Source of the DNA: Notolepis coatsorum
Taxonomy: Eukaryota; Chordata; Actinopteri; Aulopiformes; Paralepididae
NCBI GenBank assembly: GCA_963971535.1
Contig: OZ020591.1
Span: forward strand, 18,770,877 to 18,834,876
Direction of reading: 5' to 3'
DNA: 64,000 bases
Part shown: piece by piece, positions 22,388-53,829 of the stretch
Layout of the letters: each line of letters begins with the position of its first letter
Numbering within the stretch: the stretch's first letter is position 1
Notes under the pieces: model-generated
Database searches by the model: none
Told to the model about the DNA's origin: nothing
What the model saw: only the letters and a program-made list of their open reading frames with translations
Position numbers and translations under genes: made by a program

Positions 22388-22838
22388 TTGAGGCCCCTCC
22401 TCCTTTCTCATTAGCGCCACCCGCCACATAAGTATGTAGGTGTGCACCTGGACGACAAGCTGGCCTGGTCTGCAAACACGGACGCGCTCTATAGGAAGGG
22501 ACAGAGCCGGCTGTTCTTCTTTAGGAGGCTCAGCTCTTTTAATGTGTGTGGGGAAATGTTGTATATGTTTGATCAGGTCCTTTCTCCCCACAGCCATCAG
22601 ACTGTACAACAGCTGACCTTTGACCTGTGGCTGTTTGTTTCCTGTTCCCTACACCTGTTTTTATACACCTGTCTTATACACCTGCTTTTATCTTATCACG
22701 TTTTTATTATTATTGGTAGATATGATGTACATGAATTTTTATCATGTGCTTACTTTTTAATTCATGATGCAGACATAATTGTGAACGACTGTATGAGCTA
22801 TGTGAGATCCCTGAATTTCCTGAAGGGGATGAATAAAG
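22388..22838 (+). mobile_element. LINE 3' end, coding C-terminus plus tail
   Basis: An open frame with 'VGVHLDDKLAW', 'KGQSRLFFFRRL' and 'FNVCGEMLYMF' is the region after the RT catalytic core in Rex/CR1-like LINEs. The tail (22616-22838) is the same as 1-262, and this copy includes more 5' sequence. Confidence 0.7.
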
Positions 22839-24097
<1,259 letters not shown>

Positions 24098-24361
24098 AAA
24101 ATGAACTGGGGAAAGTCTGCATTATTGCCACTGAATGCCTCTGCTGCATGGCTAGCTGCCCCATTTAACATCCCAGTGGTCCAGAATCTTAAATATCTTG
24201 GTGTTTCAGTCCACCCCTCGGTTACAAGCACAGTACTGTATCAAGTCATTATAAGAAAGTGCTTATGGAGGTAGAAACACATCGGCAAGGGTGGAATACT
24301 TCTCCCCTCTAATTCCATTCTCTTTTTCATATATTAAAATGAATATTCTTCCACAAATTAG

Positions 24362-28664: not shown

Positions 28665-30487
28665 AATGAATGAATGAATGAATGAAAACTTTATTTAACA
28701 GATTGCAGAATGGGTACAATACAGTACGGCTCAATACATACAATTGTTAAGGGGATGCAGACCTGAGAAAGACGTTTGTCTTGTTTCCATCAGGGTCCCC
28801 CATTTTCAATTCATATAGACATATATGACATACATGACATACAGATAGTCAGTACTGCTACATCTATACATTTATGACATACCAGATTTGCAAATACAGT
28901 ACTGTTTGTGATACAGAAGGAGTCAAGAAAAGGGAGTATATACATTTGACGTAGAAACTGTACATTGGAGGTTGGGTGGGGGGGGTTGGGTACATTGGGA
29001 TATTGACAACCATACTGGGTAATTTACATTGGAGGTGGTTGGGGGGGGGGGGGGCACACTGTATAAACAAGTAACACTGTACATTGAGGGGGGGGGGGAG
29101 GAGACACTGTACAAACAAACACAATTGTACATTGAACTATTGACAAAACCATACTAGGTAAATGACTGTACATTGGAGGGGGTTGGAATGATTGGGTTAG
29201 GATATTTACAGGGGCCAGTGTTGAATTGCAGTCTCCCGTAGGTGTCCCTTGAGAGAGGTTTTGAAAGTGGGTAGTGATCCACATTCCTTTACAGCTTTGG
29301 GTAGGGCGTTCCACATTGATGTGGCATAATTGCGAAACGTGTTTAGTCCCTTATTTGAGCCGAATCTGGGTTTGACATGATTTGTGGAGCTCCCTCTGGT
29401 GTTGTGATCGTGGTATTCACTGACCTTTGGGAAGTATTTTGACATGTACATGGGTACCTTGGTCGTGTAGTGTATCTTGTAGACCAGGCCCATTGCAAGT
29501 TGTTGTACTCTGTCGTCTACTCTAAGCCATCCTAGGTTGTCGAAGTGGGCAGGGGTGAGGTGGGTTCTAGGAGTAAGGTCAAGCAGTAGTCTGACCAGTT
29601 TGTTTTGAGATGTTTGTAATTTTGTTTTTAGCGCCTTTGAGGTGCTTTGGTACCATGAGGTGCAAGCATAGTCGTAGTACCCCTGAATGAGTGCTCCTGC
29701 CAGAGTCTTCAGGGTGTTCTTGTTTACCAGAGAGGAGATCCGGTACAAGAATCGAGTTCGTTGGTTGACTTTTTTTATTACATTGGATGCCATTTTGTCA
29801 CAGGAGAGATTAGCCTCTAGGATGGACCCCAGGTAGGTAATTTCATCTTTCCTTGTGACAATATTGTCACCCACTGTAACTGAGAAGCCGTCGGTCTTGC
29901 TGAGTTTGTTATTTGAACCGAAGAGAATGGACTCTGTTTTGCCCATGTGTAATGATAGTTTGTTATCAGCGAGCCATATGCAGATTCTGCCTAGTTCCGA
30001 GCTGAGGGTTTTTTCAACCTGTAACTTGTTCTTGTCAGAGACCAGCAGGGCTGAGTCGTCCGCAAACAGGAACAAGTTGCAGTCACAAGCTGACGACATG
30101 TCATTTGCATAAATTAGGAACAGTAGCGGTCCTAGTATGCTTCCTTGTGGAACACCACAGCTCACTGTGAGGGGGGGGGATAGGGTACCGTTTACCTCCA
30201 CCATCTGTTCCCTCCCCTCAAGGTAGGATTGCATCCAGCTCACTGATAGACTATCAAAACCAATTGCTTTTAGCTTGTCAATCAGAATGGAGTGATTGAC
30301 CGTGTCAAAGGCCTTTTGTAGGTCCAGCATGACCATGCCGCAGTATTTGCCTGCGTCCACCTCTTGTTTGATGTGGTCATTCAAATAGAGAAGGCATGTG
30401 TCAGTGGAGTGGGATGTTCTGAAGCCAGATTGGAATTCGTAGATTAGATTTTTTTCCGCTAGGTACTTTTCGACCTGTTCGTAGACT
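28665..30487 (-). mobile_element. CR1-like LINE, 5'-truncated, 1.8 kb, empty site known
   Basis: The tail '(atga)n' begins at 28665, the 3' UTR follows, and an open 392-aa frame occupies 29206-30384. The paralogue at about 5490 reads straight through ('ttaatcagaaggtcc'), giving the pre-integration site. No long TSD is present. Confidence 0.92.
29206..30384 (-). CDS. LINE reverse transcriptase fragment, 392 aa
   Basis: It encodes the C-terminal half of the CR1-like ORF: palm motifs 'LDLQKAFDTVNHS', 'CGVPQGSILGPLLFLIYAND' and 'FADDSALLVSDKN', then the long C-terminal region ending 'IQHWPL'. There is no endonuclease because of 5' truncation, so it cannot be an active element. The frame is intact over its whole length, consistent with a young insertion. 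It is about 95% like the matching part of 41771-45772 by eye. Confidence 0.9.
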   Translation of the reverse strand: MNDHIKQEVDAGKYCGMVMLDLQKAFDTVNHSILIDKLKAIGFDSLSVSWMQSYLEGREQMVEVNGTLSPPLTVSCGVPQGSILGPLLFLIYANDMSSACDCNLFLFADDSALLVSDKNKLQVEKTLSSELGRICIWLADNKLSLHMGKTESILFGSNNKLSKTDGFSVTVGDNIVTRKDEITYLGSILEANLSCDKMASNVIKKVNQRTRFLYRISSLVNKNTLKTLAGALIQGYYDYACTSWYQSTSKALKTKLQTSQNKLVRLLLDLTPRTHLTPAHFDNLGWLRVDDRVQQLAMGLVYKIHYTTKVPMYMSKYFPKVSEYHDHNTRGSSTNHVKPRFGSNKGLNTFRNYATSMWNALPKAVKECGSLPTFKTSLKGHLRETAIQHWPL

Positions 30488-30710
30488 AATAAGGTCCTTT
30501 GGACATTATTCTTTGATCAATAGGTATATGTTCCCGTTTGTGATTACAGTATTTCACAATTGCCTAACCTTAAATAATGTACCCAACAGTTAGACCAGCG
30601 GTGCTGCCATATATAAAACATTAGATGCGACATTACGCCATAAATCATGGGATAACCGTCCGTCCGCCATCTTACCTGGATATTGTTTAGGCAGCATGTT
30701 TGTCGGCTGT

Positions 30711-31470: not shown

Positions 31471-32637
31471 GGCTATGGTTAGACTAGTGTATTCCTGGCG
31501 TTTTTTTATACGTTTTTGACGACGTTTGATGTCCTATCTACACAGAAATGCGTTTTTTGGCGTTTTTTTGTGGATACGGCTGAAACGCAAAATTGTGTTT
31601 GCGTTAGGAGATACGAAAAAAAAACGCGCCGACAACAGCGTGTAGTCTGCACGCTAGCCGTTGTTGCGAAAACGCCCATGCGCAGTAGATACCATCGCGT
31701 GCCCTTCCGGTGACAACAGTGTGTGTGTTTGGGACATAGCTCCTCCGTGTCCCAAATAGCTTCAGCTACCATGTGTTGTCAAGTTATTGTTATAAGGACC
31801 CCAGTCCAAGCTACAACAGTCTGCATTCCCTTAACAATTGTTTGTATTGAGCCGTATTGTATTGTACCCATATGCAATATGTTAAATAAAGTTTACATCC
31901 ATTCATTCTGCTAGCATTACCGATTGCATGAGCAGCTGGCTAACGTGAGCTATCAGGATTCAGACCCTGTTAGCTCAGAGCTACTCTTTCAACTTAACAA
32001 GCATTAAACAAAATGGCCCAGTCATCTATTCACCTTTGTTTAATACACACAGCGTTGTCTCTAATGTTATCTAACTACTGATAGCTCGCGATATCATCAG
32101 TTTGTGCTGGCTAAGTAGCGTGAGCTAACGTTAGCTTCTAGCCACAATGCTATATTGTTATAATGGCATACTCCATTGACGTTAGCATGCAGCTAACAAT
32201 GCTACCGATCGTTTTTTAGACTAAACTATCCGCTCTTGGTGGTCACTTGTGTTGATGTTAGTTTTGTTTCATCAACAAATGACAGGCAGAACACACAGTG
32301 AATGTATCCGTTTTGTTTATTGCACTTTTATTAGGCTTTGCTGAAGAAGAATTGCTGCATTGAGTAAATAGGCAAGATGGTGGCATAGGCGCCTGCCTTA
32401 TTGACATATTTTCTTTGCTGGAGCTTCCAGGAAGTGTATTAGCACATTCGTTCTGATTGGTTGAAATTGCCTTCATGTTTGCCACCTACTGCCACCTACT
32501 GCTTTGGCAGTGTACTACATCAGTGTGCTCGGGTGACAAAACGAAAAAAAAACGAAAGTGTGACTCGAGGCCACGACGTTGCGGCGATACGTATAAGAAA
32601 ACAATACGAAGATGATACGAAAGGTGTAACCGCAGCC
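31471..32637. mobile_element. Non-autonomous PIF/Harbinger-like element, 3-bp TSD, empty site known
   Basis: It is bounded by 'ggctatggttagac' and 'gtgtaaccgcagcc' and flanked by TTA (31468-31470 and 32638-32640). The paralogue at 6073-6075 is the unoccupied site ('catcttagttttgg'). Near its right end, 'ttctgattggttga' and 'cctactgctttggca' also occur in the same order near the right end of the autonomous Harbinger element (52550-52615). A LINE tail is nested at about 31790-31910. No transposase is encoded. Confidence 0.8.
31790..31910 (+). mobile_element. CR1-like LINE tail
   Basis: It includes 'cccttaacaattgtttgtat' through 'gttaaataaagtttacatcc', a diverged 3' end. It is nested in the Harbinger-like element. 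Confidence 0.75.
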
Positions 32638-32916
32638 TTAGTTTTGGGGACAACCAACCAGCAAAAGTGAGCTCCGTTTTTAAAAAGTAGTATAAACATG
32701 AAAAAGGCATGTAGGCTACTTGAAGCCTCGATTGCACATGTATACTGAGAATGGACTATATGGCGAAGTAGCTAGTGTAATGTTTCTGTTCTGGCTGTCA
32801 CTCTTAGTGTCTAGCAGAAAGAATTGAATGTCCACACGATGACAATATAGCTGAAGGTTCTTTACTTCCACACTTTGGGTTGCATACATCCAACTGGCGG
32901 GCACCGTATCTGACGT

Positions 32917-41641: not shown

Positions 41642-41747
41642 TAGGGGTGGGAATCACCAGTTTCATCACGATACGATATCGATTCTTTGGCCAACGATAC
41701 GATATTTGCAGATATCACAGTCTGCCACGATACGATTCTATTAGATT

Positions 41748-44700
41748 CAGGTAGAGCATCCGGCTTCAACATGGACGGTCGCATTTTACGTAGCTCCCGT
41801 AACCAACGCAACAGAGCAACAACAACAAAGTACTTTGCGCATTTTCTACTTTCCCTCCTGTGGATTATGGATTTGTACCTGAATTCACAACTCAAGCAGC
41901 AACTCCAGACAGAAGTGGAGGATAGCGAAAACGTAAAACAGCAGTCCCATTGCGACTTCTATTTGTTAACGGGCTCGGAGAGGAAACATCCAGCCTTCGG
42001 AGCCACGACCATCCACACAGTACTTACTGCAAATCCGGAACGAAAGAAATTACCCCCGGCAGGCAAGTGTAATAAGAGATCAATGTTTTTATTATACCTG
42101 CTCATGTCGGGTGACATTCATCAGAACCCTGGTCCCGTAATGACACGGAACCAGAGACTACAGTCAAATCTGCTGATCCAAGAAGCAGCAGCCAGCACAA
42201 CAGATCAACGGCTACCCACACATACTGCGGCTAACGACATGATCAACGGCAACATTCCTCCTCTGCCACCCCTGCAAAAGAACCCACGAGAGGCCACAGC
42301 GAGAGGGAAGGAACCGGGGTTCACAACCGAGGCGCCCAGCACGTCGCGGGGACAAAACAGCGAGGCATCGCTCCTCACACCGGCGCCGGAGATCAACAGC
42401 ATCCACGCAATTGACGCCTCAGCCAGCAGTTGCACCAGCCGACCAGCAAGCGGCGACATACCCTCACAGAAGCCCCAGCGGACTCGGCGAGTGGCTAAAG
42501 GGAGAGCGGCGCGGGACATCGAGACCACCAAGGACCCGACGGTTAGCTTGGCTGGCCCCGCCAAGGCCGCCATGCCAGCAAGTCTACCCGGGCCGAGGCC
42601 AGGACAAAAGGCACCCCCCCTCCCCCACAATGGAGTACAATCAGACATATCTGTAATCAACCAGCCCCCCCCCCCACATCGCGGGCTTTCACACAAAGGA
42701 ATACAGACACCAGCAAAGGACAAAGCATCACCCCTCCCCCCCCTCCCCACCCACGGCACAAACAGCAACAACGCCCCCCCTCCCCCCACCACAGGACAGG
42801 ACACAATTGAACAAAGTTACCTCAACTGTGACGACGTCAATCTTATTACAAGCAAAAATGGACTTCACATATTTCATCTGAATACAAATAGCCTGAGACC
42901 GAAACTGGCTGAAATCAAACAATTGTTTTTAAACGGTAAGGCTAACATATTGTGTTTCACAGAAACAAAATTAGACTCATCTGTACAGGATCCAGAGATT
43001 GAAATTGAAAACTACTCAATAGTCAGGAGGGATAGGAACCAGTATGGAGGTGGCGTCTGTGTGTATATACACAAGGATACCAAATACATCAACCGTACTG
43101 ACCTTAACCATGATGAAATTGAAACTGTTTGGATTGAAATCTTATTAGACAGGGCGAAACCGGTACTAGTAGGCACAATCTATAGACCACCAGAACAGAG
43201 TGGGTTTTATGACACACTTGATGGGTGTTTAGCTGGGGTGGAGGGGGTAGAAAAAATTCTTATTGGGGACTGGAACACGGATATGCTGCGTAAATCAGCA
43301 CCCGTCTTCAAGGCCTTCAGTAGATTTTCTGACCTGCACGGTTTCAGCCAGCTAATCACACAACCCACAAGGGTATGCGATTCGACACAAACCACCATTG
43401 ACCTCATTTTGACCTCTGACAAGTCCATGATCTCCAGTAAAGGGGTGATAGCATGCGGGTTAAGTGATCATTATATGATTTTCTGTACCCGCAAAAAGCT
43501 AAAACAGAAGGCCGGCTGTCACAAAACAGTCACATCTAGAGACCTCAAAACTTACTCTAGAGAGGCCTTTAACCTAAAACTGGGGAGCTTGGACTGGTCA
43601 GATGAGCTCAGTGGTACACAGGTTGAAGAAACATGGCTTGGATTCAAAACCAAATTCACAGCAATACTCAACAACATGGCACCGATAAGAACCACCAGGG
43701 TTAAAAATCGCGCTGAGGCATGGATGCACACTGAAATACTGGCCGCTATGAAAACCAGAGACAAAAAATGCTCTGAACTTCATAAAAGTCAGACAAAGCT
43801 TTCCAAAAGCTCAAACAGTGAACTCCAAGCCCACGTGGTTGAACTAAAAATCCAAAGAAACAGACTAAGAAATGACGTAAACACCATGATCAGAACCGCA
43901 AAAAGAAATTTCATCAACGACAAAACTGAGGAAAACAAAAACAAACCCCGCGAACTTTGGAAATTACTCAATAATCAACTAGGCTGCAGTAAAAAACTTA
44001 AAACCAGATTCTCAAACATAAACATAAAGACGGACAACACGCTCATCACAGACAAGCTGGATGTAGCCAATTACTTAAACATCTTCTTCACAAACATAGC
44101 CACAACACTGGTAAACAAACTACCCTCCCACTCAGGGCATTATGGGGTAGAACACATAGTAGCATACTACAAAAACCTAGGGGTCCACAAAGACGACTTC
44201 AAACTTGAAATGGTAACAACCGATGAGGTACTCAAAAAATTGAGCGCCCTCCAACCTAACAAGGCCACTGGCCATGACAACATCCCCTCCAAATTCCTCA
44301 GAGACGCAGCAGCCGCCATCACCCCAGTCATCACACACATAATAAACCTCTCTATAAAACAGGGGCACGTCCCCAAGGACTTCAAAATTGCGAGAGTGAC
44401 CCCTCTACACAAAAAGGGCAGCAAATTAGACCCAGGCAACTACCGCCCTGTTTCTATTCTTACCTCCATCTCGAAAGTCATGGAGAAAATAGTCTACGAA
44501 CAGGTCGAAAAGTACCTGGCGGAAAAAAACCTAATCTACGAATTCCAATCTGGCTTCAGAACGTCCCACTCCACTGACACATGCCTCCTCTATTTGAACG
44601 ACCACATCAAACAAGAGGTGGACGCTGGCAAATACTGCGGCATGGTCATGCTGGACCTACAAAAGGCCTTCGACACTGTCAATCACTCCATTCTAATGGA

Positions 44701-46195
44701 CAAGCTAAAAGCAATTGGTTTTGATAGCCTATCAGTGAGCTGGATGCAATCCTACCTGGAGGGGAGAGAACAGATGGTAGAGGTAAACGGTACTCTATCC
44801 CCCCCCCTCACAGTGAGCTGTGGTGTTCCACAAGGAAGCATACTAGGACCGCTACTCTTCCTAATTTATGCAAATGACATGTCGTCAGCCTGTGACTGCA
44901 ACTTGTTCCTGTTTGCGGACGACTCAGCCCTGCTGGTCTCTGACAAGAACAAATTGCAGGTTGAAAAAACCCTCAGCACGGAACTAGGCAAAATCTGCAT
45001 ATGGCTCGCTGATAACAAACTATCATTACACATGGGCAAAACAGAGTCCATTCTCTTCGGTTCAAATAACAAACTCAGCAAGACCGACGGCTTCTCAGTT
45101 ACAGTGGGTGACAATATTGTCACAAGGAAAGACGAAATTACCTACCTGGGTTCCATCCTAGAGGCAAATCTTTCCTGTGACAAAATGGCATCCAATGTAA
45201 TAAAAAAAGTCAACCAACGAGCTAGATTCTTGTACCGGATCTCCTCTCTGGTAAACAAGAATACCCTGAGGACTCTGGCAGGAGCACTCATTCAAGGGTA
45301 CTATGACTATGCGTGCACCTCATGGTACCAAAGCACCTCAAAGGCGCTTAAAACAAAATTACAAACATCACAAAACAAACTGGTCAGACTACTACTTGAC
45401 CTGAACCCCAGAACCCACCTCACCCCTGCCCACTTTGCCAACCTAGGATGGCTTAGAGTAGACGACAGAGTACAGCAACTTGCAATGGGCCTGGTCTACA
45501 AGATACACTATACGACCGGGGTGCCCATGTACATGTCAAAATACTTCCCAAAGGTCAGTGAATACCACAACCACTACACCAGAGGAAGCTCAACAAATCA
45601 TGTTAAACCCAGATTCGGCTCAAACAAGGGACTAAACACGTTTCGCAATTATGCCACAACAATGTGGAACGCCCTACCCAAAGCTGTAAAGGAATGTGAA
45701 TCCCTGCCCACATTCAAAACCGCCCTTAAAGAGCACCTACGGGAGGCTGCAATTCGAAACTGGCCACCGTAAATGCCCAAAACCCCCACCACCTCCTAAT
45801 AGACAGTCTCCTCCCCACCGCATGTATATATTCCCTCCCCGCCGTATGTATATTTCTCTCCCACCCACCCACCCCCTCCTAATGTACAGTCCCCTCCCCA
45901 TCATATGTATATACTCTGTCAGGATCTAGGGGTAACAGTACTGTATATTTGAATACCGCCTATGTCACAAATGTATCAGTACTAAATACCTATATGTCCC
46001 TATGCCATAAATGTCATGTATGTTATGTATGTCATAAATGTCTATATGAATTGAAAATGGGGGACCCTGATGGAAACAAGACAAACGTCTTTCTCAGGTC
46101 TGCATCCCCTTAACAATTGTATGTATTGAGCCGTACTGTATTGTACCCATTCTGCAATCTGTTAAATAAAGTTTTCATTCATTCATTCATTCATC
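41748..46195 (+). mobile_element. Near-full-length CR1-like LINE
   Basis: It consists of a single long ORF (41771-45772), a C-rich 3' UTR and the tail 'gttaaataaagttttcattc' with (ATTC)n to 46195. It interrupts the hAT element, whose 'cgat'-rich sequence resumes at once. Other copies at 3470, 6093, 17304, 28665, 31101, 31790 and 51735 are 3' fragments of the same family. The exact 5' junction is uncertain by about 20 bp. Confidence 0.88.
41771..45772 (+). CDS. LINE polyprotein: 2A-like motif, APE endonuclease, reverse transcriptase
   Basis: The 1,333-aa frame has three parts. First, an N-terminal segment ends in 'LMSGDIHQNPGP' (last Pro about residue 122), matching the 2A ribosome-skipping motif except that His replaces the usual Glu; a Pro-rich linker follows. 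Second, an AP endonuclease starts near residue 365 ('HLNTNSL', 'TETKLD', 'GGGVCVYI', 'YRPPEQ', 'GDWNTD', 'SDHYM'). Third, the RT ('LDLQKAFDTVNHS', 'GVPQGSILGPLLF', 'FADDSALL' near 1048) has the usual C-terminal extension ending 'IRNWPP'. No stop or frameshift interrupts it, so it may still be active. A separate ORF1 with Cys/His motifs is not seen. The true start could be further downstream. Confidence 0.9.
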   Translation: MDGRILRSSRNQRNRATTTKYFAHFLLSLLWIMDLYLNSQLKQQLQTEVEDSENVKQQSHCDFYLLTGSERKHPAFGATTIHTVLTANPERKKLPPAGKCNKRSMFLLYLLMSGDIHQNPGPVMTRNQRLQSNLLIQEAAASTTDQRLPTHTAANDMINGNIPPLPPLQKNPREATARGKEPGFTTEAPSTSRGQNSEASLLTPAPEINSIHAIDASASSCTSRPASGDIPSQKPQRTRRVAKGRAARDIETTKDPTVSLAGPAKAAMPASLPGPRPGQKAPPLPHNGVQSDISVINQPPPPHRGLSHKGIQTPAKDKASPLPPLPTHGTNSNNAPPPPTTGQDTIEQSYLNCDDVNLITSKNGLHIFHLNTNSLRPKLAEIKQLFLNGKANILCFTETKLDSSVQDPEIEIENYSIVRRDRNQYGGGVCVYIHKDTKYINRTDLNHDEIETVWIEILLDRAKPVLVGTIYRPPEQSGFYDTLDGCLAGVEGVEKILIGDWNTDMLRKSAPVFKAFSRFSDLHGFSQLITQPTRVCDSTQTTIDLILTSDKSMISSKGVIACGLSDHYMIFCTRKKLKQKAGCHKTVTSRDLKTYSREAFNLKLGSLDWSDELSGTQVEETWLGFKTKFTAILNNMAPIRTTRVKNRAEAWMHTEILAAMKTRDKKCSELHKSQTKLSKSSNSELQAHVVELKIQRNRLRNDVNTMIRTAKRNFINDKTEENKNKPRELWKLLNNQLGCSKKLKTRFSNINIKTDNTLITDKLDVANYLNIFFTNIATTLVNKLPSHSGHYGVEHIVAYYKNLGVHKDDFKLEMVTTDEVLKKLSALQPNKATGHDNIPSKFLRDAAAAITPVITHIINLSIKQGHVPKDFKIARVTPLHKKGSKLDPGNYRPVSILTSISKVMEKIVYEQVEKYLAEKNLIYEFQSGFRTSHSTDTCLLYLNDHIKQEVDAGKYCGMVMLDLQKAFDTVNHSILMDKLKAIGFDSLSVSWMQSYLEGREQMVEVNGTLSPPLTVSCGVPQGSILGPLLFLIYANDMSSACDCNLFLFADDSALLVSDKNKLQVEKTLSTELGKICIWLADNKLSLHMGKTESILFGSNNKLSKTDGFSVTVGDNIVTRKDEITYLGSILEANLSCDKMASNVIKKVNQRARFLYRISSLVNKNTLRTLAGALIQGYYDYACTSWYQSTSKALKTKLQTSQNKLVRLLLDLNPRTHLTPAHFANLGWLRVDDRVQQLAMGLVYKIHYTTGVPMYMSKYFPKVSEYHNHYTRGSSTNHVKPRFGSNKGLNTFRNYATTMWNALPKAVKECESLPTFKTALKEHLREAAIRNWPP

Positions 46196-47137: not shown

Positions 47138-47807
47138 CTGGTGGCCACGCGACGTGGGCATAAAATAATGGCGACGATGCAAAGCATGTTAGATACATTT
47201 GACCCGTTACGGGGGGAAAACTGCACAGACTTATATCGGGTCACAAAATAGAGGCTCCCTAGCGCTGCTCTGCTGAACAGAGCTACACGGAGTTTCACAA
47301 CACTGGGCGCGGGGCGGATATGACGTCGCCGGATTTTCAAAATAAGAGTATCGCAATATGAATCGATCTTTTTACGTTGCATCGATCCTATTTGATTATT
47401 GATAATCGATCGATATATCGATCTGGATCTATGTATCGTCCCACCCCTAGTTTGAATGGTCTCCTGCTGCTAACTGCGTGGACAGACTGAGGCCCCGTCC
47501 ACATGAACGCTGGTTTTAATATAACCATGATTGTATGTGCGCAGTTCCACTGTTCGGCCACACACAACCGGGGATTTGCTACGCTGCAACCGCGGTCTTT
47601 AAAACCGGTGGCAAGGGTGAAGTTTTGCGGTTTTGCAGTTGCGTGTGGGCATAGCAACCGAGGTTATCCGAGGTTATTCCCAGTGTTTACGGCTGACGCA
47701 ATTATTGTCCATGTTTACGGCAGACTGTCGCAAACAATAGCAAGTTAGAGAGGAGCAGAGCCAGCTACATCTGAGGGAACACCGTTTTGAAAAAGACAGC
47801 TACTGAA

Positions 47808-49827
47808 ATGGAAGTGGTGGTGTCGGCTGTTCATGGATGTTATGCTCTGTTGATGACCGCGTTGCGCGAACAGAGGCGCATGGTCGAGAATCGAAGAAGG
47901 ATACTGCTCCTCTTGTTTGCAAATACAACTACACGAAGACAGCGGCGATGCGCTCGCCAGCGGAGGTTCTGGACGAGACCAGGTCGGACCTCTAGCTGGT
48001 GGGATAATTTCGAGAATGAGGTAGTGTTGGAAGAAGAATGGCGAGAGAACTTTAGGATGTTCCGACCAGCACTACTGTCGCTGAGTGAAATGCTTCGCCC
48101 GCACATTCAAGGACAAACAACAGTCATGCGTTCGCCGGTCGGTGTGGTAAAGAAAGTAGCCTGCACTCTCTACTATCTAGCAGATGAGGGAAGACTGCGA
48201 AAGACAGCTAATGCATTTGGCTTGTCGAGACGGGTGGTCTCAAAAATAATCCGGCAGGTATCTCGGGCAATAACAATACACGTGGGCGGCCCCCAATATA
48301 TTCGTTTGCCTCGCACGGTTTCCGAAGTCCAAGAACTGACCACAGCCTTCGAAAGAGCCCATGTCATGCCACAATGCATCGGTGCGGTCGATTGTACACA
48401 CATTGACATACGACAGCCGCTTTCCAACTCCATGGATTACGTGAACAGGTGAGACAACCTTTCACTTTATATTGTATGACAGCTTTGTGTACAATACCAT
48501 TGGATTAATTGATAAATCTGGTGTGTGCTGTGTGTGCCCATTAGGTGTGCTTGATTAATCAACTTATTAATCCAATAGTATAGGACAGGAAGCAAAGATA
48601 GTGAGTAACATGTGTAACGAAACAGGTGTTTCCCTTCTTTCTCCCCCATCCCTCTGCAAATTTTTTAAACTGTACATTTGAGTAAAAATAGGTGCCTTAA
48701 CAGTTATATTATGTTTTATTGCATGTCCTTTTTTTTACCATGCATATCTTGTCATCTTATTTTTTCAATGCCTGTATTCTATTTTATTATTGTATTTTGC
48801 ACAATATAATAGACAAAGAGTTAACACTGTAAATTGTATATTGCATAGTAGTGTACATAAGAACCAGTTTCTCAGGAACCTAGCATGTCTTTTTTTTTAC
48901 CATGCATATCTTGTGTCATCTATTATTTTTTCAATGCCTATTGTATTCTATATTATTGTATTTTGCAATAATAGGATTGCTGTTGTAGAATTCTGACATT
49001 GTTTTCCTTTGTGTGTGTGTGTGCCTTTTTGATTTTGAACAGGAAGAAACGATATTCTCTCAATGTCCAGGCTGCCTGTGACTACAAGTACTCCTTCATT
49101 GATGTGGACGTGAAGTGGCCAGGTTGCTTACATGACGCTCGTATCTGGGCCAATTCAACGCTGGCGTCGCATCTAAAGAACGGGGTTATCCCTTCCTGTC
49201 CCAAAAAAATCCTGGACCACGAGGAGCCTGTCCCAGTCTTTCTCCTTGGAGACCCAGCTTATCCTTTGTCTCCCTACTTGATGAAGGAGTATGCAAGTGG
49301 AGGCAGCACTCTCACGGAGAAGTACTTTGGACTGACCTTGTGTCAGGCGAGAATGGTAATTGATGGATTGATTACTACATTATTGCTGTCTAAAACTATA
49401 CATTTTGACAAATATAGCCACAATATAGGTGCTGCTTACAGGTTGATAAAAGCAGTACATTTTAGTATCTCTAGAGATGGCCAATAATGTTATACTAGTT
49501 GCAACTATGCAAGTGACAAACATCTGACTGCCTTTTTACTTACAGGTGATCGAATGTGCTTTTGGAAGATTGAAAGCACGCTTTGGTGCACTGAGAAGAC
49601 CGATGGACATCAATTTAGATGATCTCCCTTTCGTTATTTATGCCTGCTTTGTCCTCCATAACTACTGTGAGGCCCAACGTGAGACGTTGGACGAGCACAT
49701 AGTCAGAGAGGCAGCTCAGCAAGACCGGGACAACCAGCCTGCCGCTGACCGCAACTTCAGAGCAGACTGCGTCTCAGCAGAAGGAAAGAGGGTCAGGAGG
49801 GTCCTTACTGAATTCATGGATCCGTGA
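47808..49827 (+). CDS. PIF/Harbinger DDE transposase, three exons, 411 aa
   Basis: This protein would cut and rejoin the element ends in the nucleus. Exons are 47808-48448, 49043-49355 and 49546-49827. Donor 'cag|gtgaga' and acceptor 'gaacag' keep phase 2; donor 'atg|gtaatt' and acceptor 'ttacag' keep phase 0. A basic N-terminal region ('[12 protein letters not shown]') and a helix-turn-helix-like stretch ('[21 protein letters not shown]') precede the DDE_4-type core. The three acidic residues are in '[10 protein letters not shown]', 'LLGDPAYPL' and '[13 protein letters not shown]'. No stop or frameshift is present. Length fits HARBI1-type transposases. The start is chosen as the first ATG after an upstream non-ATG stretch. 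Confidence 0.92.
48596..48975. repeat. Left arm of an internal inverted repeat
   Basis: It matches the reverse complement of 50658-51030, including 'gtaacgaaacaggtgtttcc' and the 'ttgtattttgcaataatagg' end. It lies wholly within the first transposase intron. A tandem partial repeat ('ttttttaccatgcatatctt') is present inside. Confidence 0.9.
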
Positions 49828-50657
49828 AAGAGGCTGCGAGTTCTCCTGTTCTCCTTGCAAAAGGGGAGCCGCAAGACAGTTGTGCTGACCGACTTCCAAG
49901 GTCTACAAAAGTTGTATTGTGTAACATGACAAATAAATATCTTGAATCTTGAACCTAGTCACCTAATCATATTGAATTGAAATTTTAGAATGTAGGTATT
50001 ACTGCTGTCTAATATTAAGGCACCTATTTTTACTCATGTACAAACGAGTAAAGAAATGCAATATGTATATTGCCACACAATACTGTCTGGCTTTGCAGAC
50101 ATCTACACCACAAAACAATGCATGCCCACGGCCACACCCACGTGCCTGCCCCCACTGCAACAAGCACCCACATCCAATTTACATTACACAAATTATCATA
50201 CTAAAGGATACATGCATCCACTATGTACCCTACACCTGAATATTCAAATCTTGTGTCTGCCAGAATCACACTGCCTACTTGAAAAGTGGCCATTGAACTT
50301 GACTGCTCATTATAGTACAATCTACTTTTAGAATGTAGGCATTACTGCTGTCTAATATTAAGGCACCTATTTTTACTCATGTACAAACGAGTAAAGAAAT
50401 GCAATATGTATATTGCCACACAATACGGTCTGACTTTTTCAGGCCAGATACCTGGGCTTTGTATATCGGCCAGTACAGTATAGATTTGGACCGTCATTTG
50501 ACAAATTATTGAGATATACATTTTTCTCCATTAGAGTGTGCAGAAAATAGTAATAAGTCGGTGCAAATCTTTCCAATGTGAGGTATCAAGAGGTTTATTT
50601 GTTAAAATAAAAATAGATAAGACATGATATGCATGGTAAAAAAAGACATGCTAGGTT
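49828..50657. other. AT-rich spacer between the convergent Harbinger genes
   Basis: An 'aataaa' at 49932-49937, about 105 bp after the transposase stop, is a likely poly(A) signal. A segment 'ctgctgtctaatattaaggc' occurs twice (near 50005 and 50345), a direct repeat of about 80 bp. No further ORF is supported. Confidence 0.6.
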
Positions 50658-51030
50658 CCTATTATTGCAAAATACAATAATATAGAATACAATAGGCATT
50701 GAAAAAATAATAGATGACACAAGATATGCATGGTAAAAAAAAAGACATGCTAGGTTCCTGAGAAACTGGTTCTTATGTACACTACTATGCAATATACAAT
50801 TTACAGTGTTAACTCTTTGTCTATTATATTGTGCAAAATACAATAATAAAATAGAATACAGGCATTGAAAAAATAAGATGACAAGATATGCATGGTAAAA
50901 AAAAGACATGCAATATAATATAACTGTTAAGGCACCTATTTTTACTCAAATGTACAGTTTAAAAATGTGCAGAGGGGTGGGGGAGAAAGAAGGGAAACAC
51001 CTGTTTCGTTACACATGTTACTCACTGTCT
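50658..51030. repeat. Right arm of the internal inverted repeat
   Basis: Partner of 48596-48975. It ends just before the stop codon region of the MYB-like gene on the minus strand, so it may form part of that gene's 3' UTR. Confidence 0.9.
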
Positions 51031-51052
51031 GTACCATTTCCCAACGGGGTAT

Positions 51053-52457
51053 CTATTGCTGAGTTGTTGAAGGTACTGTTGTGTGGGTATGTACCAGGTA
51101 TTGCTGTAGGGTATGTAGGTATGTACCAGGTGTTGCAGAAAAGTTGTGAGAATATGTGCCCTGTCCACGTGTTGCTGAGGAGTTGTGTGGGGATGTGCCA
51201 TAGCGGCTTCCGTAATGTGTGTGACCACTATGATGTTGTGGATTGTGATGTTCATGTTGTGGTGCCATGTTGAAGAGTTGAGGTGCATGTTGCATATTGG
51301 ATTGTCTCATAAACGCAAGTCCTTCTACAATGGACCTGGTCAGTGTCGCTAGGGTATTTGCCATACTCTTCATATTTGTATCTAGGGTATTTGCCATACT
51401 CCTCATATTTTCATTTGACTGCAACTCAGACGCCTCAAGCAGGTCAATGATCCTTTTCTTGGCCTTGACGTCTTCCTCGATCGCATGCTGGAGCTGTCGA
51501 ATCAGAATTGTATTTAAATTTAAGTTAAGACCACCGTGCACATTTCACATCTGTTACACAGAACATTTCTGCTTTATCACCAATGATGATTACCTGTGTG
51601 TCAGCAGAAAGCTTTCTTTTCAGGCGATCCTGTCTGTGTCCTTGGAGTCTTGCCTTTGGGGATAAATAGATAGAAAGAAATTAGGCTAATTGTAAACCAC
51701 ATAAATTAGGTCATTGGCATTTGGTAATTTCATTTAGTCTTGTTTACATCAGGGTCCCCCATTTCAATTCATCATAACATATATGACATACGGATAGACA
51801 GTACTGTTACATCTAGACATTTATGACATACCAGATCTACAGATATACAGTACTGTTTGAGTACAAAAAACAAAAGAGTTTACAAAGAGAGTATACATTT
51901 GAGGGGGAAGAAACTGTACATTGGAGCAAGCATATAGTAATAGCTACCTGTAATAGATCCCTTCTTTGTCTCACCACAACTTGGTTACTGAGCCCTGGTT
52001 CTGGCGAATCTGATGCTTCTTCAATCTCCTGTTCAGAAGCCTCTGTAGTACTATCTTCTGGTACAATGAAATCAGCAGTTTCGATTCCCGATGGAAGGGC
52101 AGTGGTCGCAGGCGACCCACCCCACACTTGCTCACAAAGTTCAAAATACAAGAAGACCACTCTTCCAAAGCCACTCCTGGTACCTTTGTCAACTGCTCCT
52201 CGATATTTCAACTTTATTTGTTTGAGCTTGTTAATTAGTACTGCCTTGGTGATGTCCTCCTTCTTGTGTGGAAAGTCGGAGTCCGTTTCACAGCGATACT
52301 GCTCGAGGAATAACGCTAAAATGTCCGCATACTTGCTTTGTACGGACTCCCAGTCGACGGATTCTGTTATTTTATTCACCTTGTACTCGTTCGTGATACT
52401 CAGGAGTAGTTCGACCTCACTGTCGGTCCACAGGAAAGATTTTTGTGCTGCTGCCAT
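51053..52457 (-). CDS. Harbinger MYB/SANT-like accessory protein, three exons, 336 aa
   Basis: In vertebrate Harbinger elements a MYB-like partner binds DNA and helps the transposase enter the nucleus. Exons on the minus strand are 52457-51948, 51653-51594 and 51493-51053, all joined in phase 0 with 'cag|gtagct', 'aaag', 'cag|gtaatc' and 'gacag' sites. Exon 1 starts 'MAAAQKSFLWTDSEVELLLS' and has a trihelix/SANT pattern with conserved Trp residues and 'KLKQIKLKYRG'. Exon 2 is a 20-residue basic segment ('ARLQGHRQDRLKRKLSADTQ'). Exon 3 begins 'LQHAIEEDVKAKKRI', has a 'SMANTL' repeat, and ends in a His/Thr/Tyr-rich tail. The 60-nt exon and its boundaries are inferred from splice consensus and phase. 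Confidence 0.85.
51735..51925 (-). mobile_element. CR1-like LINE 3' UTR fragment in the MYB-like gene intron
   Basis: 'catcagggtcccccatttca' and the following ~170 bp match the LINE 3' UTR in reverse orientation, diverged. It ends about 20 bp before the exon 1 donor of the MYB-like gene. Confidence 0.8.
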
Positions 52458-52769
52458 GTTCGTTGATAGCTGTAGAATGTTTGTTTTGGCTGTGAGCAGG
52501 AGGGATGTTTTGTATTCGGCGCTTCAGTTCAGTTCCGGTAACGCTAAGCCCTTCTGATTGGTTGAGATGGCCTTCATGTCTGAACAACATCGCCGCCTAC
52601 TGCTTTGGCATTGTATTACATTGTACTAAATGTATCGGTTGCTGGGTTCCCAGCTCTGCCGTGAGTACGCAGTTATACACGGTTATACACCTGTGTTCAC
52701 CGTGTGGACGGAGTTTTATTTTTTCAAACTTCGGTCATATTAAATCCAAACGCTCGTGTGGACAGGGCC

Positions 52770-52971
52770 TGAGATTAGCTCCACTCACAGTCGCACACTC
52801 CATTGTTTTTAGTTGCTGCTGTGAAACGTCATGTGATCTTGGATGTCAATCGTCTTCTCCAGCGTTAAGTCTGGACCGTAGCAGAGTAGCTTCTGCCTCA
52901 CTCTTGCTGAGTTAGTGGCAAACACAACCATTTTGTCACTTTTGTCGTAAGTACAGTCCTTCACTAGCAGC
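52770..52971 (-). pseudogene. Ty3/gypsy gag, middle piece
   Basis: The minus-strand frame reads 'LLVKDCTYDKSDKMVVFATNSARVRQKLL', broken into 'LLVKDCTYDKSDKMVV' and 'FATNSARVRQKLLCYG', then 'DLTLEKTIDI'. A 2-bp loss near 52843 puts the following 'SQQQLKTMECATVS'-like stretch in another frame. This is the C-terminal capsid region of gag. Confidence 0.8.
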
Positions 52972-52975
52972 TTAA

Positions 52976-53829
52976 AGTGGAGATGAAGCAGTGAGCAATG
53001 TGATCCTAGTTTGTTTGTTGTGTACCTTGTGTAAGACAGGGTTCTATAATCAAATGTGAAATCTATCTTATTTGTCTGAAAAATATAATATAATATCCCT
53101 GTTTTCAACATGGGCGCCGCCATTTTGTTGCTGACGTCATGGCTGACGTCATGCCGGGGGTTGGGTGTATACACTCTGGTTAGCTGCCTATATTGAATGG
53201 GTCAGTCAGCAAATAAAATGTTGCCTACAAAACAACGGGACCGCGGTGGTTCTGTTTGTATTGCTCCTGGCTGTTCAAACTAATTTTACCATGTGAGAGA
53301 GAGGAAAGTTGGTTAATTTCCACAAACTACCACTACCAAACATCCCACCCCAACAACATAATCCGAGGCAATGAAGTGTTCTCTGCAGATCCTCCTTCCC
53401 TGTCCAACAGGCTGGTCGCGCCGCCTGAGTGCAGCCAGCCCGAGCCAACATGTCAACAACACTGTTTTTTTCACTGGTAGTTTGTGGAAATTAACCAACT
53501 TTCCTCTCTCTCACATGGTAAAATTAGTTTGAACAGCCAGGAGCAATACAAACAGAACCACCGCGGTCCCGTTGTTTTGTAGGCAACATTTTATTTGCTG
53601 ACTGACCCATTCAATATAGGCAGCTAACCAGAGTGTATACACCCAACCCCCGGTATGACGTCAGCAACAAAATGGCCGCGCCCATAATGCTAAATGCTTC
53701 AGAAATGTACACAACAAATCGTTTTTTCTTAGAAACTGCTTATTTTTATAACGTGACTTCTTCTGTGGCTTATCTAAATACTAATGTGATGCTATGAATA
53801 TGTATTTATCGCACTGCTTCATTTCCACT
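52976..53829. mobile_element. TTAA-flanked foldback element with THAP remnant, Kolobok-like
   Basis: Ends 'agtggagatgaagcagtg' and 'cactgcttcatttccact' are inverted and each is bordered by TTAA (52972-52975 and 53830-53833). An inner palindrome has arms at 53110-53332 and 53475-53685 with a 142-bp loop. The TTAA target and a THAP-domain remnant fit the Kolobok superfamily. piggyBac also uses TTAA but has no THAP domain. Gag reads in frame across the empty site. Confidence 0.75.
53313..53498 (-). pseudogene. THAP-domain remnant
   Basis: The minus-strand frame has 'VNFHKLPVKKT', a central Trp ('LTCWLGLAAL') and 'RRICREHF', which supplies the C-x2-H half of a THAP zinc finger. The other half, 'VCIAPGCSN' (C-x4-C), is encoded in the arm just upstream but in a different frame with a stop between. 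The coding part spans the palindrome loop. It cannot make an intact domain. Confidence 0.65.

Follow-up and report, generated by a model that had tools for sequence, protein, structure and literature searches.

We have analyzed a stretch of 64,000 nucleotides from Notolepis coatsorum (assembly GCA_963971535.1, contig OZ020591.1, positions 18,770,877 to 18,834,876 of the forward strand; hereafter the window), and found at 47491-52769 a two-gene DNA transposon that is very probably a near-complete, young copy of a multicopy NuwaII-type element, belonging to the PHIS/Harbinger superfamily, in a ray-finned fish. An earlier note on the same DNA had described a recent, two-gene PIF/Harbinger transposon. 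The first part of this description held, the copy having 14 private substitutions among the 5,209 positions for which five or more loci gave coverage. The second, taken narrowly, did not, because the targets are of the TNA/CTNAG type. The element and its ends are the following.

47491..52769, + strand: NuwaII-type (Harbinger-like) DNA transposon, 5,279 bp (from its ends, repeats and further genome copies)
47487..47490, unstranded: left target context, C plus the TGA duplication (sequence)
52770..52773, unstranded: right target context, the TGA duplication plus G (sequence)
47491..47527, + strand: left terminal inverted repeat, with a private substitution at position 14 (repeat alignment, comparison with copies)
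52732..52769, - strand: right terminal inverted repeat (repeat alignment)

These bounds, with TGA on both sides, are those proposed before and the sequence agrees with them. The terminal inverted repeats are imperfect (37 and 38 bp, 30 of 38 aligned columns matching), and their local alignment score was 44, against a maximum of 30 among 1,989 random pairs of window stretches. A pattern derived from both ends, allowing up to three mismatches, matched these two ends alone in the window (chance mean 0.10). The ends begin with GGCCC and, together with the repeat lengths, agree with what is described for NuwaII, i.e., a GG start in most ends and repeats of 13-46 bp. The ends had also been called clean, which is true of the TGA duplication and not of the left repeat, whose position 14 carries a substitution seen in none of 22 other loci.

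The host genome (3.42 Gb in 4,787 contigs) gave at least 163 matches to the element. It also contains a rhodopsin gene without introns (query residues 1-333 of 333 matched at 82%, in an open frame of 359 residues), a mark of ray-finned fishes that supports the assignment to this group. A 19-bp end pattern had 452 exact matches in it and none when the pattern was read backwards; these 452 may include non-autonomous and related elements. We fetched 38 stretches (L numbers below), mostly chosen by score from the genome search, and in some cases one copy lay over several of them (L025, L030 and L046; L026 and L029; L022 and L045). Both ends were seen in 14 other copies, 12 within one stretch and two split (L025/L030 and L026/L029). 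The long copies were about 99% identical over the aligned letters, gaps left out. Judged on these comparisons, the window element is a young copy of a multicopy family.

The target sites point to the class. PIF/Harbinger is defined by TWA duplications, NuwaI by CWG and NuwaII by TNA set between C and G, C-TNA-G (as described in Han et al., 2015, PMC4482050). Identical 3-bp flanks were found in 11 of the 14 two-ended copies, ten of them TNA and one ACA, and the full C-TNA-G pattern in nine of the 14 and in the window copy. The duplications were TGA, TCA or TAA among the copies, with TGA at the window copy. We also sampled 20 further ends, the first 20 of the end-pattern match list in list order: 17 were preceded by TNA (TGA, TCA, TAA or TTA) and 11 by CTNA, when these strings make up 7.2% and 1.4% of window positions, respectively. 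Ten of the 17 were TGA or TCA, outside TWA. What we find is therefore the NuwaII target and neither the TWA duplication of PIF/Harbinger proper nor the CWG of NuwaI. ISL2EU elements have AT duplications and a YqaJ gene; here the duplication is the 3-bp TNA, and YqaJ was absent from the Pfam matches of both proteins up to E 1. The transposase, of the DDE_Tnp_4 type, places the element in the PHIS/Harbinger superfamily. Since Nuwa and canonical Harbinger have been grouped in one lineage, according to the account in PMC12730594, the name Harbinger superfamily stands and that of PIF/Harbinger proper does not.

The transposase gene consists of three exons.

47808..48448, + strand: transposase exon 1, with D195 at 48390-48392 (open frame, Pfam)
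49043..49355, + strand: transposase exon 2, with D284 at 49251-49253 (open frame, Pfam)
49546..49827, + strand: transposase exon 3, with E321 at 49552-49554 and the stop (open frame, Pfam)
49932..49937, + strand: AATAAA, likely transposase poly(A) signal (sequence)

As the earlier note stated, both genes read without stops over consensus splice sites, giving spliced frames of 411 residues for the transposase and 336 for the convergent Myb/SANT-like gene, with GT..AG at all four predicted junctions. The transposase matched the whole DDE_Tnp_4 profile (1-158 of 158, E 5.9e-32), and the three catalytic acidic residues that had been claimed, D195, D284 and E321, are intact within this match. The window copy has two private substitutions in this protein, S85F and Q142R, and one private codon near residue 160, with no private change in exons 2 and 3. 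Other searches added little: NCBIfam gave nothing useful for exon 1 of either gene, the sequences of solved structures gave weak matches to the two proteins (best E 0.086 and 0.33), and pattern scans of viral and prokaryote collections gave 6 and 25 pattern hits, with no relative confirmed among them.

The second gene lies on the opposite strand.

51948..52457, - strand: Myb/SANT-like gene exon 1, with one private codon (open frame, Pfam)
51594..51653, - strand: Myb/SANT-like gene exon 2 (open frame)
51053..51493, - strand: Myb/SANT-like gene exon 3 in the window reading, with a private 4-bp loss (comparison with copies)
50594..50599, - strand: AATAAA, likely Myb poly(A) signal (sequence)
51733..51926, - strand: fragment of the 3' region of a long interspersed nuclear element (LINE) inside Myb intron 1 (window self-comparison)

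The two genes probably end before meeting, each with its own AATAAA (at 49932 on the + strand and 50594 on the - strand). The last Myb exon of the window lacks 4 bp that every other locus legible at this place possesses (16 of 16), a comparison that required exact flanks and left altered copies uncounted. In 11 of 14 other translated loci the protein ends in ...GNGTDSE, with the stop just inside the right inverted arm described below (of the remaining three, L011 is broken before this point, L013 diverges, and L022 was read up to a point short of the stop). This family stop is at about 51020; the window frame is shifted near the end of the gene, and as a result of the private loss its open frame finishes with an out-of-frame tail. 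The exons had been called intact, which can be kept for the transposase and has to be given up for Myb exon 3. An autonomous element would have both genes intact in the family frame, and here the transposase is open and the Myb C-terminus is out of frame. Because of this private frameshift the window copy's own autonomy appears doubtful; the loss could conceivably be an assembly error. The copy is recent, as proposed before, while continued competence is unproven and is weakened both by the shifted Myb frame and by the private left-repeat substitution. Over the longer matches, the LINE fragment in intron 1 resembles the other LINE tails of the window at about 77-81%, and it seems to be without the last part of the LINE.

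Among the 12 single-stretch copies the transposase is open in seven (L009, L012, L013, L015, L016, L017 and L023) and the Myb gene also in seven (L009, L010, L012 and L015-L018). Both are open in five, which keep their start codons and DDE motifs. In the two split copies the transposase reading is broken. Overall, 5 of the 14 other two-ended copies have both genes open, four of these five with identical flanks, so that the statement that intact copies are uncommon in fish finds no support here. Two-gene Harbinger elements are reported as widespread and transcribed in teleosts, and the single-open-reading-frame form as not found there (in the survey of PMC9179366). Seven other loci (L020, L027, L039, L040, L041, L043 and L044) are truncated and contain parts of element positions 61 to about 3496. 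They are 99-100% alike over their main pieces, flanks included, and represent a recently multiplied larger block carrying a broken copy. We considered them as a second element type and rejected it, the near-identical blocks including the flanks.

Several observations weigh against our assignment. Three of the 14 two-ended copies do not have identical flanks: L009 has a damaged right end, L025/L030 has TAT and TGT, and L026/L029 has TTA and TAA. L018 has A preceding TAA, L011 is the copy flanked by ACA, and 3 of the 20 sampled ends are non-TNA, all three with one common flank. The placement in NuwaII was made by target site and ends, against published descriptions and not Nuwa reference sequences. 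The second gene is present and kept in the copies, and its SANT fold is only inferred, because Myb_DNA-bind_4 scored below the Pfam cut-off (E 0.049; 14.5 bits vs 27) and the single-sequence fold of exon 1 was poor (mean predicted local distance difference test, pLDDT, 44). Finally, constraint on the sampled copies is uneven: the pooled ratio of nonsynonymous to synonymous polymorphism (pN/pS), taken over the sampled copies, broken ones included, came close to unity in the first two transposase exons (0.87 and 0.98) but was 0.15 in the third, with 0.39 for exon 1 of the Myb gene. A canonical PIF/Harbinger element with TWA duplications, both genes intact and probably active, would account for the two-gene layout, the open frames, the DDE triad and the youth of the copy. 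Nevertheless, we consider it very unlikely, given that the target site already contradicts it (TGA or TCA at 10 of the 17 sampled TNA ends) and that the private Myb frameshift and left-repeat change do not fit an intact element.

The NuwaII-type element contains, in addition, a pair of inverted arms that the earlier note left unremarked.

48596..48976, + strand: left inverted arm, in transposase intron 1, a derived insertion (window self-comparison, copies)
50657..51030, - strand: right inverted arm, with the last family-frame Myb codons, the stop and the 3' region, likely template (window self-comparison, copies)

The left arm, of 381 bp, repeats the stop and 3' region of the Myb gene in the opposite orientation; 371 of 381 columns are identical, and 249 bp are perfect. 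Its site could be measured in 23 other loci. Fourteen are armed (219-385 bp from anchor to anchor), four of which (L020, L027, L043 and L044) are one duplicated block. Seven are armless, with 58-68 bp in place of the arm (L011, L022, L024, L025, L026, L034 and L035), and two are longer (L028 and L031). The right arm is present in the armless copies L011 and L022. Acceptor and template share microhomology at the junctions, the 4-bp AGAT and the 3-bp GGA. The existence of armless loci (7 of 23) and this microhomology suggest that the left arm likely comes from templated gap filling in an ancestor. A gap in transposase intron 1 would have been filled with an inverted copy of the Myb 3' region, most likely once, in the ancestor of the arm-bearing lineage. 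The mechanism is deduced from AGAT and GGA at the junctions, and gap filling with template switching and breakpoint microhomology has been described for animal transposons with terminal inverted repeats (TIRs) (PMC8277862). Nothing specific on internal inverted repeats in Harbinger appeared in the literature searched by title and abstract. Among the armed copies, the window, L013 and L014 have a long left arm, and the remaining 12 have one of about 220 bp. The states of the window copy alternate at 23 diagnostic sites, and for this reason we weighed a mosaic origin from armed and armless subfamilies and dropped it; it is simpler that the window lineage had already branched away when the changes of the short-arm group arose.

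The arms might instead each be an insertion of the same small, independent mobile element, similar to a miniature inverted-repeat transposable element, as they are nearly identical and rich in short repeats. We find this improbable: inspection by eye shows neither terminal repeats nor a duplication where the arms end, and a comparison with the rest of the window, made with low-complexity filtering and up to E 1e-3, gave no match to them beyond the element. Besides, the right arm starts in the last Myb codons of the family and is also found in the armless L011 and L022, and the left arm stands in place of a short sequence that was there before, with microhomology at either junction. It could also be argued that continuing gene conversion keeps the arms alike and that double-stranded RNA from the element silences it. 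The 249 bp without difference between the arms would be expected, and there is one site with C in both window arms where the left arm has A in 17 of 17 other covered loci (several from one duplicated block), a hint of arm-to-arm conversion. However, this hint is a single site, other copies have arm-specific states, and the right arms of L015, L016, L018, L019 and L023 are short with a crossover point different from that of the left, and for this last reason we largely rejected concerted evolution between the arms. The right arm, in addition, comes after the likely poly(A) signal of the transposase. Altogether, conversion with silencing appears extremely unlikely. Also speculative, and of very low probability in our estimate, is that the arm in the transposase intron alters splicing or RNA-based control of both genes and so contributed to the success of the arm-bearing lineage; if true, the left arm would be a self-made regulatory insertion from gap repair. 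With templated gap filling as the preferred origin, the armless and armed alleles document clearly how a site inside a transposon looked before and after an inverted gap fill bounded by microhomology.

One more feature inside the element concerns its putative working.

47566..47660, unstranded: left subterminal AACCG cluster, candidate Myb-like binding sites (motif count)

AACCG appears five times in the left 210 bp, twice on the right (52636 and 52680) and once elsewhere in the element, left and right together amounting to 16 times the window rate. The motif was picked post hoc, after inspection of the sequence. Five were reached by 4 of 1,823 window stretches and two by 60, so that the left cluster alone stands out. 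RNA folding of the left 210 bp gave no signal (z -0.15). Outside the element, at 32451-32640, a 71-bp stretch is 83% like the right subterminal region and is followed by an end-like GGTGTAACCGCAGCC and then TTAG, which may be what is left of a related family. Directly to the right of the element there is an inverted repeat of about 220 bp (53110-53332 and 53475-53685, 93.7% alike).

Both proteins are reported to be required in zebrafish Harbinger3_DR and rice Ping, and in the zebrafish element subterminal motifs are bound by the Myb-like protein, on which the entry of the transposase into the nucleus also depends (according to the accounts in PMC2836001 and PMC9710019). The ends, duplications, genes, catalytic residues and copy family are observed here, and the two proteins likely work in the same way. 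By analogy, once expressed, the Myb/SANT-like protein would bind subterminal motifs, here perhaps the AACCG repeats, and carry the DDE transposase into the nucleus and to the ends; the transposase would then excise the element, and insertion at C-TNA-G would duplicate TNA. The copies with both genes open might act in trans on the window copy.

Elsewhere in the window, we detected at 41645-45772 an open frame of 1,375 residues, endonuclease- and reverse-transcriptase-like (a LINE, by eye), a 94.6% piece of it at 29204-30488, and at 22833-24104 a long four-base repeat array that in several frames translates without stops into a Ser-Ile-Tyr-Leu repeat. Scans for tRNA genes and against Rfam (gathering threshold) gave no hits.

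As a transposon the element is ordinary, and the value of the case lies mostly in naming it correctly, as a member of a NuwaII-type family that has moved recently in a large fish genome and includes several copies in which both genes are open. Two intact open reading frames were reported, over all eukaryotes, in 88 of 214 PIF/Harbinger, 11 of 23 NuwaI and 22 of 30 NuwaII families (PMC4482050). With NuwaII, known from 12 species in that description, three of them bony fishes, it shares the C-TNA-G target, GG at the ends, repeats of a length (37-38 bp) inside the NuwaII range, and a DDE transposase with a Myb/SANT-like protein. It differs in length (5,279 bp, where NuwaII elements average about 4,685) and in the inverted arm in transposase intron 1, the whole comparison being by description and not by sequence. 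PIF/Harbinger proper (e.g., Harbinger3_DR) has in common the two genes, the DDE transposase, the Myb-like partner and a 3-bp duplication, but its target is TWA instead of TNA/CTNAG. NuwaI, for which 12 of the 16 species listed are bony fish (PMC4482050), has the same two gene kinds and GG-rich ends, but its duplication is CWG and not TNA. Finally, the left arm resembles Pack-TIRs, gap-filled TIR transposons, in its filler, short breakpoint microhomology and nearby template; but while the filler described for Pack-TIRs is captured host DNA (PMC8277862), here it is the inverted 3' region of the element's own Myb gene.

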